A stretch of 64,000 nucleotides of DNA. Origin: Bacillota bacterium (lineage in GTDB: Bacteria; Bacillota_I; Bacilli_A; RF39; UBA660). Shown piece after piece: positions 3,135-61,193 of the stretch (position 1 is the stretch's first letter; each line of letters begins with the position of its first letter). The stretch covers positions 453,291 to 517,290 of the forward strand of contig SVAS01000001.1 in the NCBI GenBank assembly GCA_015059285.1, in the 5' to 3' direction. A program made the translations under genes and the position numbers. The notes beneath the pieces were generated by a model. The model had not been told where the DNA came from and did not search any database. It worked only from the letters and a program-made list of their open reading frames with translations.

Positions 3135-4184
3135 TTATTTTAAAATTTCTATTACTGGACGGACACCACAATAATTTTCAGGATTTGAGATTTCACTACT
3201 AACATAACCACTAAACATTACATACCAAGAATTATTAGATATTGTTGCATCAGCAGAACTTGTCCAATATCCATATATTCCTGTATCACTACTCAAATTA
3301 TCATATGCCCAATTATTTGAACTTATTTCTCTTGCTTCTGTTTCTGAAAGCATACGTGATCTTACATTTGTTCTTGTAATTGTACCATATCTACTATCTG
3401 TTAAGCTATATGTTTTTGTAGGAATATTTGTCCATCCACTTGTTTGGGTTTCTAAATAGTTTAATGCTGTGATTGGTCCTTTATTATTGTTACCACCATC
3501 ATTCATAACTATATTCCATTCTGCTTCTGTTCCACCCGCTGTTATGTAATCATTTTTTCTAATCCATGGCGTATATCCATCTATATTACTATCCATAATT
3601 AGTGTTACAGTATTATTCTCTTCACTTACTACATAAAAGTTTTTGATATTACCAGGTGCTACTTCGATTGCAAAGTTTGTTCCTACTGCACAGGCAGTTC
3701 CATCTGTTGCACAAGTTGCCACAGCTGTAGCAAAACTATTTGTTCTTGCCAAATAGGCTAAGGTACCTGGTTCTGGTGGCAAATTACAACCATCAAATTC
3801 TTCTAATGTTTCTATTTTACTATCGTCATACCCTTTTGTAATACATAATGATCCATTTGATATTGCTAATGCTACTTTACCTTCACGTGTAACTTTTATC
3901 TTACCTGTTTTTGGTAATTCTCCTTTTATATCTAAGCCTTCTGCACTTGTAAGCTTTCCTTCTTCAATTGTAAATTCAATATTACTTGTCATTCCACCAT
4001 TTAATAGCTCACCTGCATAATACATCTCACCTGCACTTATTAGTCCATATGCGGTATTTTCAAACGCTTTTTTTCTAGCACTTGTTATAATATTTATTAT
4101 AACTGGTACTGCTATAAGTGCGATAATTGCTAATATTACTATTACTGCTAACAGTTCAATTAAGGTAAATCCTTTTTTCTTCAT
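3135..4184 (-). CDS. prepilin-type protein with lectin-like C-terminal domain
   Basis: Secreted pseudopilin-like protein of about 349 residues. The N-terminus KKKGFTLIELLAVIVILA is a class III (type IV pilin/type II secretion) prepilin signal, cleaved after Gly and methylated on Phe, followed by the long hydrophobic helix. Residues 50-130 form a pilin-like region. The C-terminal ~200 residues contain repeated W/G landmarks (GYWTSSA, then CGVRPVIEI at the end) resembling FGE/C-type-lectin-like or DUF6273-type domains. An upstream in-frame TTG (4217) is rejected because AAGGAG lies between it and the ATG at 4184. The 5' region is almost a copy of that of the gene at 28849-30483. No peptidase or assembly ATPase is in the window, so its machine is unknown. 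Confidence 0.85.
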   Translation of the reverse strand: MKKKGFTLIELLAVIVILAIIALIAVPVIINIITSARKKAFENTAYGLISAGEMYYAGELLNGGMTSNIEFTIEEGKLTSAEGLDIKGELPKTGKIKVTREGKVALAISNGSLCITKGYDDSKIETLEEFDGCNLPPEPGTLAYLARTNSFATAVATCATDGTACAVGTNFAIEVAPGNIKNFYVVSEENNTVTLIMDSNIDGYTPWIRKNDYITAGGTEAEWNIVMNDGGNNNKGPITALNYLETQTSGWTNIPTKTYSLTDSRYGTITRTNVRSRMLSETEAREISSNNWAYDNLSSDTGIYGYWTSSADATISNNSWYVMFSGYVSSEISNPENYCGVRPVIEILK

Positions 4185-4345
4185 AATATTCCACTCCTTC
4201 TTTCTTATTTTGAACAATTTTTTATTCTTTTATACTTTTATTTACTTTGCATAACGTATTGTTCTAGATTAATTTTATAACATAAATATTTTAGTGTCAA
4301 TAACATTTTGTTTTATTAATCTATGTTGACACATTTATTATACAT
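4185..4345 (-). repeat. upstream region duplicated at 30484-30644
   Basis: About 160 bp upstream of the prepilin start, including ribosome binding site, leader and promoter, is nearly the same as the sequence upstream of the prepilin gene at 28849-30483. The similarity continues into the first ~150 bp of the coding regions. This indicates duplication of an expression cassette rather than convergence. Confidence 0.85.
4272..4300 (-). promoter_or_regulatory. prepilin promoter (copy 1)
   Basis: Minus-strand TTGACA (4295-4300), 17-bp spacer, TAAAAT (4272-4277). The same arrangement is conserved in the second copy at 30571-30599, which strengthens the call. The leader is about 80 nt. Confidence 0.8.
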
Positions 4346-4380
4346 AAACATTTATCAAAAATAAATTTTATAACATAATT

Positions 4381-4406
4381 AAAAAGATGCTATTTAGCAT
4401 CTTTTT
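4381..4406. terminator. terminator after the AI-2E-type transporter gene
   Basis: Near-perfect inverted repeat (AAAAAGATGC with GCATCTTTTT) with A- and T-runs on opposite sides, so it can work in both directions. It lies directly after the transporter stop. Confidence 0.82.
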
Positions 4407-4408
4407 AA

Positions 4409-5476
4409 TTACTTTTCTAATAATTTTTTTCTTTTTGTTTTTTCTACTTTTTCATTTATATCACGTTTATAGTAGTTATATGTAGTTATTAACATGATTG
4501 CAACTGGTAAAGATATGATAATACCAAATACACCACATATTTTCCCTCCTGCAAACACAGCTAAAATAACTACCAATGGATGGATTTCATTAGTTTTTCC
4601 ATAAACAGACGGATTAATAATATAACTATCAATTGCTGATAAAATAACAAACACTATAACTGTTTTTATAAACAAACTAGGACTTATTACAAAGGCTGTT
4701 ATAGCAGCAATTATATTAGTAAACATCCCACCAAAATAAGGAATTAAAGAACAAATTGCAGCTAAAAATCCTAAAAGAATTGCATTAGGGTGTCCTATAA
4801 TTAAAAAAGCTATAGAATATTCAAATAACGTTATAAAAACAATTTTAATAAATCCTGTTAAATAATTTTTCATAGCATGATCTAATTCTCTAACATAATT
4901 ATAAGTTTTCTTTTTGTTTTTAAAATATTCTTTTACTCTTTCTCTAATTTTATCCATATCAATTAAAAAATAAATTGCGGATGCTATTGCTATAAAAGCT
5001 ATAGACAAATAATTTACTGAAACTCCAATAAAAGTAATTGCTCCATCAGAAATATATTTACCTAAAGTTTTGATAATATCATTAAAACTATCTGATAAAG
5101 TATTTTGTAAAGGACCAAAATCTATATCATACTCTAAAGATACTTCTTTAATAAAAGTTATAATGCTATTAAATAAACTTCCTAATTGGTCAAATAACAA
5201 TGGTGAAACCATAAATATAGTTATTCCAAATGTTGCAAGTACTAGTAAAACTACAAGCAATATACTTAGCTTTCTAGGTAATTTATGTTCTTGTAAATAT
5301 TTTACAAAAGGATAGAGCGCATATGCAACTGCAAAAGCTATCAAAAAAGGAAATGTTATTTTAGATAAAATACCTAGGGTTCCTAACCATAAGTCACTTG
5401 TTTGATATATTAAAAATATAATTAAAACAAGTATGGCAATATTAATTAATTTATAGTCTAAACGATTTTTAATCAC
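4409..5476 (-). CDS. AI-2E family transporter (UPF0118/PerM family)
   Basis: Integral membrane protein of 355 residues, usual length for the PF01594 family (AI-2 exporter TqsA, B. subtilis YtvI). Hydrophobic segments occur near residues 10-50, 60-85, 150-175 and in four helices from about 205 to 335, with the family's large loop in between. The start is GTG at 5476, preceded by AGGTAATATT. It follows dtd with a 4-bp gap and so belongs to the comN-secDF-rel-dtd operon. The substrate cannot be predicted: members export AI-2 in some organisms and act as Na+/H+ or unknown transporters in others. Confidence 0.85.
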   Translation of the reverse strand: MIKNRLDYKLINIAILVLIIFLIYQTSDLWLGTLGILSKITFPFLIAFAVAYALYPFVKYLQEHKLPRKLSILLVVLLVLATFGITIFMVSPLLFDQLGSLFNSIITFIKEVSLEYDIDFGPLQNTLSDSFNDIIKTLGKYISDGAITFIGVSVNYLSIAFIAIASAIYFLIDMDKIRERVKEYFKNKKKTYNYVRELDHAMKNYLTGFIKIVFITLFEYSIAFLIIGHPNAILLGFLAAICSLIPYFGGMFTNIIAAITAFVISPSLFIKTVIVFVILSAIDSYIINPSVYGKTNEIHPLVVILAVFAGGKICGVFGIIISLPVAIMLITTYNYYKRDINEKVEKTKRKKLLEK

Positions 5477-57943: not shown

Positions 57944-57965
57944 AAAGAGAAAAATTTTTCTCTTT
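57944..57965 (-). terminator. terminator of the bacteriocin-type operon
   Basis: AAAGAGAAAA pairs with TTTTCTCTTT, followed by TTTTCTTTTTG on the minus strand. The last small gene's stop lies in the stem. Confidence 0.85.
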
Positions 57966-58131
57966 AAAAACAAATGCCATTTTCTAAAACATTTCTAATA
58001 AAAGTTCCTACGATATTACCATAGGTAAAAATTATTTTTGTTAAAACTTCTATTAAAGGCATACAAAACACTATCAATATTAAAGTTAGTACTTCTTTTT
58101 TATATTTTTTCACATTGGTTATAAGCTGCAT
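57964..58131 (-). CDS. 55-residue membrane peptide of the bacteriocin-type operon
   Basis: Small protein with a Lys-rich start (KKYKKE), a hydrophobic helix (about 14-36) and the end YGNIVGTFIRNVLENGICF. The ATG at 58131 lies 13 bp inside the end of the preceding peptide gene, with AGGAAG 9 nt upstream, so the two are translationally coupled. There is no double-glycine leader. It ends in Asn-Gly-Ile-Cys, and the preceding peptide ends in Asn-Asn-Ile-Cys, a shared C-terminal Cys feature. Immunity proteins of class II bacteriocins are often small, basic and membrane-bound, so immunity is the leading inference; a leaderless peptide is the alternative. Confidence 0.72.
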   Translation of the reverse strand: MQLITNVKKYKKEVLTLILIVFCMPLIEVLTKIIFTYGNIVGTFIRNVLENGICF

Positions 58132-58283
58132 ATATTATTACTTCCTATTCTACGAATTGCAGTACCAACACTTCTTCCTAATCCTAAAATAGCATTAATT
58201 CCTTTTACTATTGAACTAATTAGTGTCCCTGAAATATTAATACCACCACATACCATAAGTAATTGTTGTTTATCTAATTCCAT
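58119..58283 (-). CDS. double-glycine-leader bacteriocin-type precursor peptide B
   Basis: Precursor of 54 residues. The leader MELDKQQLLMVCGG has hydrophobic residues at the expected positions and ends in Gly-Gly. The predicted mature core of 40 residues begins INISGTLISS, contains a GxxxG-type run (GLGRSVG) and two Arg, and ends in a Cys-containing tail. This fits class II bacteriocin or related Gly-Gly peptides cut by C39 exporters. ATG after AGAAAGGAGAAATT, a near-perfect binding site. It follows peptide A by 12 bp and overlaps the 55-residue gene by 13 bp. Confidence 0.82.
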   Translation of the reverse strand: MELDKQQLLMVCGGINISGTLISSIVKGINAILGLGRSVGTAIRRIGSNNICSL

Positions 58284-58295
58284 AATTTCTCCTTT

Positions 58296-58430
58296 CTAGT
58301 TACATTTTAACGGACGTACATAACCATCAATAACGCCAATAATAAAAACAATACCAGCAGCTATTAAAAATCCTACACCTACGCCTCCACCTTTTATTTG
58401 CTTTAATTCAGTTTCTTTTACTTCTTTCAT
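58296..58430 (-). CDS. double-glycine-leader bacteriocin-type precursor peptide A
   Basis: Precursor of 44 residues. The leader MKEVKETELKQIKGG is a textbook double-glycine leader (Glu-Leu-xx-Ile at the usual spacing before Gly-Gly). The 29-residue core begins GVGVGFLIAAG, is mostly hydrophobic with several Gly spaced for helix packing (class IIb-like), and ends RPLKCN with a single Cys. The ATG overlaps the accessory-protein stop (ATGA), with GAAGGG 9 nt upstream. Together with peptide B it may form a two-peptide bacteriocin; a signalling peptide is the alternative. Confidence 0.83.
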   Translation of the reverse strand: MKEVKETELKQIKGGGVGVGFLIAAGIVFIIGVIDGYVRPLKCN

Positions 58431-58885
58431 TGTTTCATTCCCTTCTTTATCTTTTTTATTAGTTTTTGAAAAAATGTTTCTTTTGGTAATTCAATACTAA
58501 TATTAATAATATTGTTATTAATAATTAAGTCTTGTTCAATTTTTGTTTCTAATACTACTTCGTAATATCTATTATACTTTTCATCTAATATGAATTCTTC
58601 ACTTATATTCTTAATTTTATATTTATTTTTTTTATTATTAATAATTAAATTTTCCTGATTAATATTTTCTATTTGTTCTTCTAATACTAAAGTTCTAAGA
58701 TGATAACTATTTTGTTCTTTCACTAAGACTGCAGTTAAATTAATATATGAATGATATGATATACTTAATAAAATGGCTAATAATAATGTTAAAAATATCA
58801 TTAAGAAAAATATGTAAATTTTAATATTAAACGATTTTCTTTGTAAAATTACATCGCTATTATAAAAAGCATTAATACTATTCAT
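58427..58885 (-). CDS. miniature HlyD-like accessory protein of the exporter
   Basis: Protein of 152 residues: N-terminal ~20 residues, one membrane helix (about 24-46), a short helical region with VLEEQIENINQEN (about 67-80), then a beta-rich C-terminal part (YEVVLETKIEQDL ... ISIELPKETFFQKLIKKI). The layout is that of bacteriocin accessory HlyD/ComB proteins but without the long coiled coil and lipoyl domain, so it is one third of the usual ~450 residues. It overlaps the transporter start by 8 bp and the peptide A gene by 4 bp (ATGA). Assignment to this role rests mostly on operon position. Confidence 0.68.
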   Translation of the reverse strand: MNSINAFYNSDVILQRKSFNIKIYIFFLMIFLTLLLAILLSISYHSYINLTAVLVKEQNSYHLRTLVLEEQIENINQENLIINNKKNKYKIKNISEEFILDEKYNRYYEVVLETKIEQDLIINNNIINISIELPKETFFQKLIKKIKKGMKQ

Positions 58886-60947
58886 TTTTATTTTTTTTGT
58901 TTACAATCCTTCCATTATTTAACTTGATGGTTCTATCAAAAAGATCTAAATTTTCTAAACGATGCGAAATTACAAGTATCGTTTTATCTTTATATTTTTT
59001 AAATATATTTTTTAATATTCTTCTTTCTAAATTTACATCTACCTGATTTAAACCTTCGTCAATTAATAAAATATTAAAATTTTGCATAAGCGCACGCGCT
59101 AATATAATTCTTTGCTTTTGTCCACCAGATATATTAAAACCATTTTCTTCTATCAACATATTATAACCTGTACTATTATCTTTAATAATTTCATCCACTT
59201 CACAAATTTTAGTTATATCTAAGAATTTATCTAAATCATCATTATCTAACAAAATATTATTATACAAAGTATCAGTAAACAAGGTTTCTTGTTGAGAAAT
59301 CATACTTATTCCATCAGAAGTTTTATAATCATTATAGTCAATATCATTGATATAAATTTGATTACGATTTATTTTGTAATACTTCATTAAAATTTTAAAC
59401 AAGGTACTTTTACCACTACCACTAGGTCCTACTATCATAATTTTTTCGCCTTTTTTTATAGTCAAATTTATGTTATTTATTATGTTTTTGTTATTTAATT
59501 CAAATGACAAATTATGAATTTTTATATTTCCTTCCAGCTTCTTATTAAGAACTCCTTCTTGTTTTGTTATTTCCAACATATTGAGAACATTTTTTAAAGA
59601 AATTTTTGCTTCTTTAATAGTATAATCTAGATCAATTATATTTTTAATAGGATCTAGAAAATAAATCAATATGGTATTAAAAGTTAGTAATGTTCCAAGT
59701 GTCAACTCTCCTTCAAGCACTAATAAACTTCCAAAAAATATAATAATAGCTTGTCCAAATGTATTTAACATATCTTTTAAAAACAATTGATTTGTATAAT
59801 TTTTTTGGAGTGAAAAAAGTGTTTTTAGATATGTAACATACTTATTTCTATACATTTTATTAATATATTTTTCTAACTTCAAACCTTTAGATGTTTCAAA
59901 TCCGGTAATTGCTTCTACCATATAAGAATTTACAGAACATTTATTTGCTTGAACTTCATTAATTTGATTAGTTAATATTTTTTCAAAAATCAAAACAATT
60001 ATTATGTAAAATAGCAATATAATTAAAGCTATAAAAAATAGTTTAGAATTTATAAAAAATAACATAATCATTGAAATTAATGACAAAGGAATATCTACAA
60101 ATATGGATAAAAATACTTTACTTATCATGTCTCTAACACTATCTAAATTATTAATTTTTGTAACTATTTCTCCTGTTGTTCTATTGCGATAATAATGATA
60201 TGGAAGTGATAATACGTTCTTAAATGTATTTAAATTAAGTTCTAAATCTAATTTTTGATTAAAAAATATTAACAATCTATTTCTACAGAAGTCAGTAATT
60301 ATTCTAAAAAGATAAACAAATCCAAAGATAATAAAGCACAATATTAGATGCGGTTTAGGATAATTGATACCATCAATTATATATTTAAAGTAAAAAGATG
60401 AAAGAATAGTAAAAATGGTCAACATTAAAGAAATTAAAAACATTTGAGCAATTTCTTTTTTATATTTTTTTAAGATATCGTATGAATAATTAAATAAAGA
60501 GTTTGTGGTATTTCTAGGTATTGGGGATGTGGGATATAAGACTATTAAGATTTTGCTCCAGATTTGTTCAAATTCATTAAAAGAAACTTTCTTTATTTTA
60601 TCTTGAGGATCACCGATAATTATTTTTTTATTTCTAAAATCAATTTTATAAATAACTATGTAATGTTTATACGTTTTATTTATTACTACATGTGCAATAC
60701 ACGGAAGTATTATATTAGAGGTATTAATTTCTTTTAATTCAGTTTTTATTCCTTTAGCATTAAATCCGATTTTGTTAGCTACTTTGATAATATTATAAGC
60801 TGTTGTACCATTTTTATTTGTTTCAAGCATTTCGCTTAAAACATCCATATTAATATAACCTTTGTAATATTTTATAATCATTAATAAAGATGCGGCTGCG
60901 CAATCTTTAATTCCATTTTGTTTAATAAACGGATATTTTTTTGACAT
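58878..60947 (-). CDS. peptidase-containing ABC exporter (C39-ABC) for Gly-Gly peptides
   Basis: Exporter of 689 residues in the usual three-part order. C39 peptidase at 1-130 with catalytic Cys16 (GIKDCAAAS), His near residue 97 (YKHYIVIY) and Asp/Gln site (GDPQDK), which cuts leaders after Gly-Gly. Membrane domain with six helices (about 160-430). ATPase with Walker A GPSGSGKST (about 500), signature NISGGQKQR, and Walker B LLIDEG. The D-loop reads LNQVD, where most ABC proteins have TSALD. Start ATG after AGGAGGTGATAAT, an ideal binding site. First gene of the operon, followed by the accessory protein and peptides. Confidence 0.94.
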   Translation of the reverse strand: MSKKYPFIKQNGIKDCAAASLLMIIKYYKGYINMDVLSEMLETNKNGTTAYNIIKVANKIGFNAKGIKTELKEINTSNIILPCIAHVVINKTYKHYIVIYKIDFRNKKIIIGDPQDKIKKVSFNEFEQIWSKILIVLYPTSPIPRNTTNSLFNYSYDILKKYKKEIAQMFLISLMLTIFTILSSFYFKYIIDGINYPKPHLILCFIIFGFVYLFRIITDFCRNRLLIFFNQKLDLELNLNTFKNVLSLPYHYYRNRTTGEIVTKINNLDSVRDMISKVFLSIFVDIPLSLISMIMLFFINSKLFFIALIILLFYIIIVLIFEKILTNQINEVQANKCSVNSYMVEAITGFETSKGLKLEKYINKMYRNKYVTYLKTLFSLQKNYTNQLFLKDMLNTFGQAIIIFFGSLLVLEGELTLGTLLTFNTILIYFLDPIKNIIDLDYTIKEAKISLKNVLNMLEITKQEGVLNKKLEGNIKIHNLSFELNNKNIINNINLTIKKGEKIMIVGPSGSGKSTLFKILMKYYKINRNQIYINDIDYNDYKTSDGISMISQQETLFTDTLYNNILLDNDDLDKFLDITKICEVDEIIKDNSTGYNMLIEENGFNISGGQKQRIILARALMQNFNILLIDEGLNQVDVNLERRILKNIFKKYKDKTILVISHRLENLDLFDRTIKLNNGRIVNKKNKNE

Positions 60948-61040: not shown

Positions 61041-61193
61041 TTACATCATATCTTCTAACTCTTCACACGCACATTTAGCTTTCTTTTTTATCATGTTTTC
61101 CATAGCATATAACATGTCATCGCTATACTTTTGATAAGCTAATACAGCTGTTGCACCAAGAGCCATTAGGGTTAAGCTTTTTACTAATTTCAT
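61041..61193 (-). CDS. 50-residue small membrane protein
   Basis: Protein with one N-terminal hydrophobic helix (about 4-20: SLTLMALGATAVLAY), a short amphipathic part and an end with CACEELEDMM. The layout resembles YtxH-like or other one-helix membrane proteins. I do not recognise a specific family. ATG at 61193 follows GAGGTGATAAA. A perfect palindrome lies just upstream. It sits between recD2 and the bacteriocin operon, but its own terminator separates it from the latter. Confidence 0.65.
   Translation of the reverse strand: MKLVKSLTLMALGATAVLAYQKYSDDMLYAMENMIKKKAKCACEELEDMM

Follow-up and report, generated by a model that had tools for sequence, protein, structure and literature searches.

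A 64,000-nucleotide stretch of a Bacillota genome of the family UBA660 (assembly GCA_015059285.1, contig SVAS01000001.1, positions 453,291 to 517,290; here called the window) carries an operon that probably encodes a two-peptide bacteriocin of the class IIb type, with the third of its small genes, where present, encoding a decoy-type immunity peptide. The operon lies on the minus strand in the order exporter, accessory gene, pep1, pep2, pep3. An earlier note, made from the DNA alone, had listed a C39 peptidase-ATP-binding cassette (ABC) exporter, a mini-accessory gene and three small genes of 44, 54 and 55 codons, the first two with Gly-Gly leaders. All of its coordinates, lengths and strand assignments were correct, pep3 indeed has no Gly-Gly leader, and its proposal of a new class II or two-peptide bacteriocin is the best supported reading, given the Gly-Gly pair, GxxxG motifs in both cores and the invariant catalytic triad of the C39 domain. 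We compared the window with 147 relatives, with a class-wide sample in which 54 genomes belong to the window's family, with 392 genomes sampled from the phylum and, by pattern scan, with 84,980 species. The relatives are draft genomes, their start codons were set by rule, and the counts for pep1 and pep2 take in a few cases at contig edges.

Two adjacent Gly-Gly precursors are found in the window and at ~95 loci. The pep1 core has 29 amino acids (aa), is hydrophobic and typically ends in G-V-I-D-G-Y-x-R-P-L-x-C; the pep2 core has 40 aa, is cationic and contains G-R-S-x-G-[TS]-A-I-R-R, followed farther on by C. GxxxG, a stated hallmark of class IIb bacteriocin cores (PMC8538875, PMC6957408), occurs in 92 of 96 pep1 cores and 97 of 99 pep2 cores, and a single Cys near the C terminus in 86 of 96 and 95 of 99, respectively. 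In pep2, the first Gly of the motif and the Cys are 16 residues apart in 92 of 94 sequences; G40 and C52 are invariant in the alignment, and G36 is conserved in at least 90%. AlphaFold models pep2 as two helices, one in the leader and a long one in the core (residues 19-48), with moderate confidence (mean predicted local distance difference test [pLDDT], 76). Searches of paper text with the core strings gave no match. The cores look new, whereas the architecture of the operon is already known; some of the peptides may already be included in the IIBacFinder atlas of gut class II bacteriocins (PMC12648078).

We examined pep3 in relation to pep2. Pep3 has a basic N terminus, a membrane segment and then a look-alike of the C-terminal module of pep2. 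Because iteration pulled the pep3 profile toward pep2, the pep3 set was defined by position, start codon and hydrophobicity rather than by motif. By this rule, 44 of 101 loci have a pep3, which starts within the end of pep2. Comparison of the pep3 and pep2 core profiles with hhalign aligned 25 columns with a score of 33.1 (P = 5e-8); the highest score among 300 column-shuffled controls was 14.6, and reversed controls reached 14.0. The pep3 profile did not match pep1. All 44 pep3 sequences contain GxxxG, and 38 contain G-x3-G-[TSIN]-x2-R (shuffle rate, 0.0013), a motif that recurs in 6 of 6 pep3 sequences from later genomes outside the profile set. In the window, its spacing is identical to that of pep2 as far as the Cys. 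The mean charge of pep3 is +2.75 at the N-terminal end and +1.0 at the C-terminal end; by the positive-inside rule, the look-alike tail would lie outside the membrane. The presence of pep3 follows the exporter tree (16 changes, compared with a null mean of 25.6). Pfam, NCBIfam and PDB searches with pep3 were uninformative. Pep3 is unlikely to be a third secreted peptide of the pep1/pep2 type, and by analogy with known systems pep3 probably has an immunity role in the producer.

The closest such analogy is gallocin A of Streptococcus gallolyticus (gllA2-gllA1-gip), in which two Gly-Gly peptides are likewise followed by a small third gene. The gip gene confers immunity, and in structural models its product mimics the bacteriocin peptides (PMC10100652). 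The idea of immunity by mimicry is therefore not new. What differs here is that the likeness of pep3 to pep2 is seen at the sequence level rather than in models, that the peptides form a single-Cys pair and that the system is retained, largely vertically, across a family. Gallocin A peptides each form a hairpin with an intramolecular disulfide; the gallocin subgroup has two Cys residues per mature peptide, whereas the window and most relatives have one per core, so a hairpin of that type is excluded here, and pep2 is modeled as one helix. The third gene of the window resembles the bacteriocin, as in the gallocin type, and its immunity role is predicted. Unlike for gallocin A, no quorum-sensing gene was seen within the operon of the window. 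Small class IIb immunity proteins include CbnZ (42 aa), BrcI (53 aa) and AbpIM (55 aa), among which little similarity is reported; CbnZ is encoded directly after the structural genes of carnobacteriocin XY (PMC6957408). Pep3, like CbnZ, is a small membrane peptide, but its C terminus resembles the bacteriocin's own module. With lactococcin G and the lactobin A/cerein 7B family (NCBIfam TIGR03949), the window peptides share the type of leader and GxxxG cores.

These features suggest the following scheme. The exporter would remove the Gly-Gly leaders and secrete pep1 and pep2, aided by the accessory protein. Outside, the two peptides would associate in a target membrane by way of GxxxG, perhaps with a disulfide joining their C-terminal cysteines, and would make that membrane leaky. 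Where present, pep3 would be anchored in the producer membrane by its own helix and would display its copy of the pep2 C-terminal module, which may protect the producer by competing for either pep1 or the target.

Pairing has to be weighed against two independent one-peptide bacteriocins that share an exporter, with pep3 giving immunity to pep2 only. The cores of pep1 and pep2 are unrelated to each other by profile comparison (hhalign), and pep3 resembles pep2 and not pep1, as that arrangement would have it. However, pep1 and pep2 co-occur almost everywhere in a fixed order, and both have GxxxG and a near-invariant C-terminal Cys. In addition, two loci of one genus (L140 and L221) have a pep2 without the terminal Cys and a pep1 with an aberrant, shortened tail that lacks RPxxC but still contains a Cys; in another genome of the genus (L222), both peptides have the usual tails. 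This joint loss hints that the two tails are coupled, and it counts as a single hint, not proof, because both loci belong to one genus. We regard two independent bacteriocins as distinctly improbable.

We next considered whether the small genes are real. The ratio of nonsynonymous to synonymous substitution rates (dN/dS) between the window and a relative of the same genus (L061) is ~0.07 for pep1, ~0.11 for pep2 and ~0.14 for pep3; for the pep2 core, dN is 0.07 and dS is 1.48. Frames of this size could by that token alone be spurious or decayed. However, dS is higher than dN in all close pairs examined, and the motifs are conserved over about 80 genera, so we give that explanation almost no credence. 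We conclude that all three small genes are under purifying selection. Across the family, the cores are about as conserved as the leaders and are therefore not hypervariable; within the genus, the pep2 core is more conserved than its leader.

The operon is near-universal in one bacterial family and is not a local oddity, which goes beyond the earlier note. Pep2 was found in 80 and pep1 in 81 of the 147 relatives, all of them within the window's family and nearly all of different genera. As the earlier note had suggested checking, pep1 and pep2 recur beside the exporter throughout the family, usually in one copy each. The pep2 profile matches 51 of the 54 family genomes in the class-wide sample, near the expectation for a universal gene at ~92-99% completeness. 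Four genomes (G019, G034, G044 and G046) initially had no pep2 match, and closer search found the peptides (loci L130, L139 and L140). Three others (G066, G080 and G285) have neither a peptide match nor a C39 exporter, one (G078) has no exporter match, two (G048 and G065) have only exporter pieces ending at 373-411 residues, and one (G003) has, besides an exporter, a detached piece of pep2 at a contig end. Among the family genomes examined, we found none in which the exporter is complete and the peptides are clearly absent, and no peptide-negative genome is a clear instance of the case that the earlier note had named as telling against it, an exporter kept and the small frames lost. In all clear cases, exporter and peptides are gained or lost together.

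Outside the family, pep2-profile matches in the class-wide sample were weak and covered mainly the leader, and we rejected them as relatives of the core. With a core-only profile, the phylum sample yielded the family and one marginal match, the listed part of that sample being of the same class; the coverage may be largely that one class, and more distant relatives may exist beyond it. The pattern scan returned 54 loci, in records labeled as uncultured or metagenome-assembled Bacilli, Tenericutes, Mollicutes and similar. In plasmid and phage records, tblastn with pep2 gave no match, which lends no support to an origin from mobile elements or phages.

The operon appears to have been inherited largely vertically. 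Among loci with a long exporter, 31 of 77 have rpsU within 1 kb downstream, and at L061 the operon occupies the same site, flanked by rpsU and a small upstream gene, in reverse orientation. In the 29 loci that keep the rpsU/yqeY neighborhood, exporter distances track rpsU+yqeY distances (Mantel r = 0.69, p = 0.0005), and we therefore take descent to be largely vertical.

Several observations weigh against a two-peptide bacteriocin with decoy immunity. Bacteriocins usually spread patchily, unlike the near-universal and largely vertical retention seen here. About half of the loci lack pep3, which would be odd for an immunity gene, and most of them have no evident replacement within the next few hundred bases downstream. 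In a test for coevolution, pep2 and pep3 from the same locus were barely more alike than mixed pairs (25.0 versus 23.4). Pep2 has no family match in Pfam or NCBIfam, and PDB was likewise uninformative. The pep1 of the window scores 17.4 bits against TIGR03949, below the cutoff of 21.5 that 7 of 9 pep1 relatives tested exceed, and family matches of this type lean on the leader.

An exported pair that serves as a conserved self- or kin-directed device, such as an envelope component or contact signal, with pep3 as an accessory subunit rather than an immunity peptide, would account for near-universal, usually single-copy and largely vertical retention. It would also suit retention in family genomes of 0.5-1.7 Mb (the window's own genome is 1.04 Mb), the conservation of the cores and the many loci without pep3. 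On the other hand, the GxxxG pair, the Gly-Gly leaders, the sizes and the gene order all fit class IIb, and no regulator or receptor gene was seen within the operon. We keep a nonweapon role open because of the family-wide vertical retention and the loci that lack pep3, and consider this device rather unlikely. Slightly less likely still is a more elaborate proposal, in which a vertically inherited family-core pair acts as a disulfide-linked heterodimer, the decoy arose from pep2 by exchange of leader for anchor, and the main role may be kin or self directed. The bacteriocin with decoy immunity remains our favored reading: adjacent Gly-Gly precursors, GxxxG in both cores and a C39-ABC exporter with an accessory protein are all present, the accessory protein being truncated and its relation to fusion proteins tentative, and pep3 fits the place of the immunity protein in the window.

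The exporter has the Pfam domains Peptidase_C39 (1e-33), ABC_membrane (2e-35) and ABC_tran (2e-26). Its architecture matches that of NCBIfam TIGR01193, a peptide cleavage/export ABC transporter, despite a score of 430.9 bits over residues 14-686 that misses the cutoff of 523.85. All 75 relatives compared share the catalytic C, H and D as well as the ATPase Lys and Glu. The accessory protein has no Pfam family, and NCBIfam and PDB searches were likewise uninformative. Its AlphaFold model (pLDDT, 91) gave membrane-fusion proteins (BesA, Spr0693 and MacA) as best Foldseek matches (probability, 0.90-0.98; E, 0.15-0.35; template modeling score, 0.34-0.41). MacA-type proteins (HlyD-like adaptors) have in common with it a predicted beta-barrel domain and an N-terminal transmembrane helix, but the accessory protein is short and its model has neither a coiled coil nor a lipoyl domain. 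The models support, and do not prove, a truncated membrane-fusion-like protein. Separately, the exporter weakly resembles the mycoplasma family Mbov_0121 (NF045998; 303 bits, cutoff of 500) and the accessory protein weakly resembles MAG1140 (NF045999; E, 0.27), a pairing that may be old and shared. No peptide with a Gly-Gly leader is reported to be known for the C39 exporter of JCVI-syn3A, nor any apparent one in other mycoplasmas (PMC6609329).

Table 1. Features of the operon, with positions in the window
Feature	Position	Strand	Remarks
C39 peptidase-ABC exporter, 689 aa	58878..60947	minus	predicted Gly-Gly leader cleavage and export
Mini accessory protein, 152 aa	58427..58885	minus	transmembrane helix, beta-barrel and C-terminal helix (model)
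pep1 precursor, 44 aa	58296..58430	minus	leader MKEVKETELKQIKGG (58386-58430), core GVGVGFLIAAGIVFIIGVIDGYVRPLKCN
pep2 precursor, 54 aa	58119..58283	minus	leader MELDKQQLLMVCGG (58242-58283), core INISGTLISSIVKGINAILGLGRSVGTAIRRIGSNNICSL
pep3, 55 aa	57964..58131	minus	without Gly-Gly leader; candidate immunity peptide
pep2 C-terminal module	58128..58178	minus	G36-x3-G40-T-x2-R44 ... C52
pep3 look-alike module	57970..58020	minus	G38-x3-G42-T-x2-R46 ... C54, spacing as in pep2
AT-rich palindrome, then T on the minus strand	57944..57965	minus	possible terminator overlapping the pep3 stop

Adjoining genes are closely packed (Table 1). Exporter and accessory gene overlap by 8 bp, and of the overlaps that the earlier note had described among the small genes, the ATGA of accessory gene and pep1 and the 13 bp of pep2 and pep3 were confirmed, whereas pep1 and pep2 are separated by 12 nucleotides. 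Where it had seen good ribosome binding sites for all three small genes, we found Shine-Dalgarno-like sequences before the exporter (AGGAGGT), pep2 (AAGGAG) and pep3 (AGGAAG). Its single closing terminator corresponds to the AT-rich palindrome followed by T, which our terminator scan did not list because it requires 3 G-C pairs; such a terminator is plausible but weak. Downstream of the operon are rpsU and yqeY. Upstream is a 50-aa membrane-type gene (61041-61193), found elsewhere among the loci examined only in the same-genus relative; its own terminator-like site (61044-61015) lies between it and the operon. At one locus (L066), a 227-aa open reading frame (3781-4464) lies between pep1 and pep2. 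In another family of the same class (f4), frames with Gly-Gly leaders, read with TGA as Trp, stand side by side in one genome (L268, 3607-3873 and 3880-4101, plus strand) and singly in another (L266, 3539-3931, minus strand); no adjacent C39 exporter was found for them.

The roughly 100 natural variants of the peptide pair, with their invariant motifs, form a panel that is ready to be synthesized. With pep3 resembling pep2 in sequence, decoy immunity, a hypothesis that came from structural models of gallocin A, becomes directly testable, and loci that lack pep3 offer natural comparisons. All genomes of the family met here were small and metagenome-assembled, yet almost all genera examined keep the operon, which points to a lasting role for it in these bacteria.
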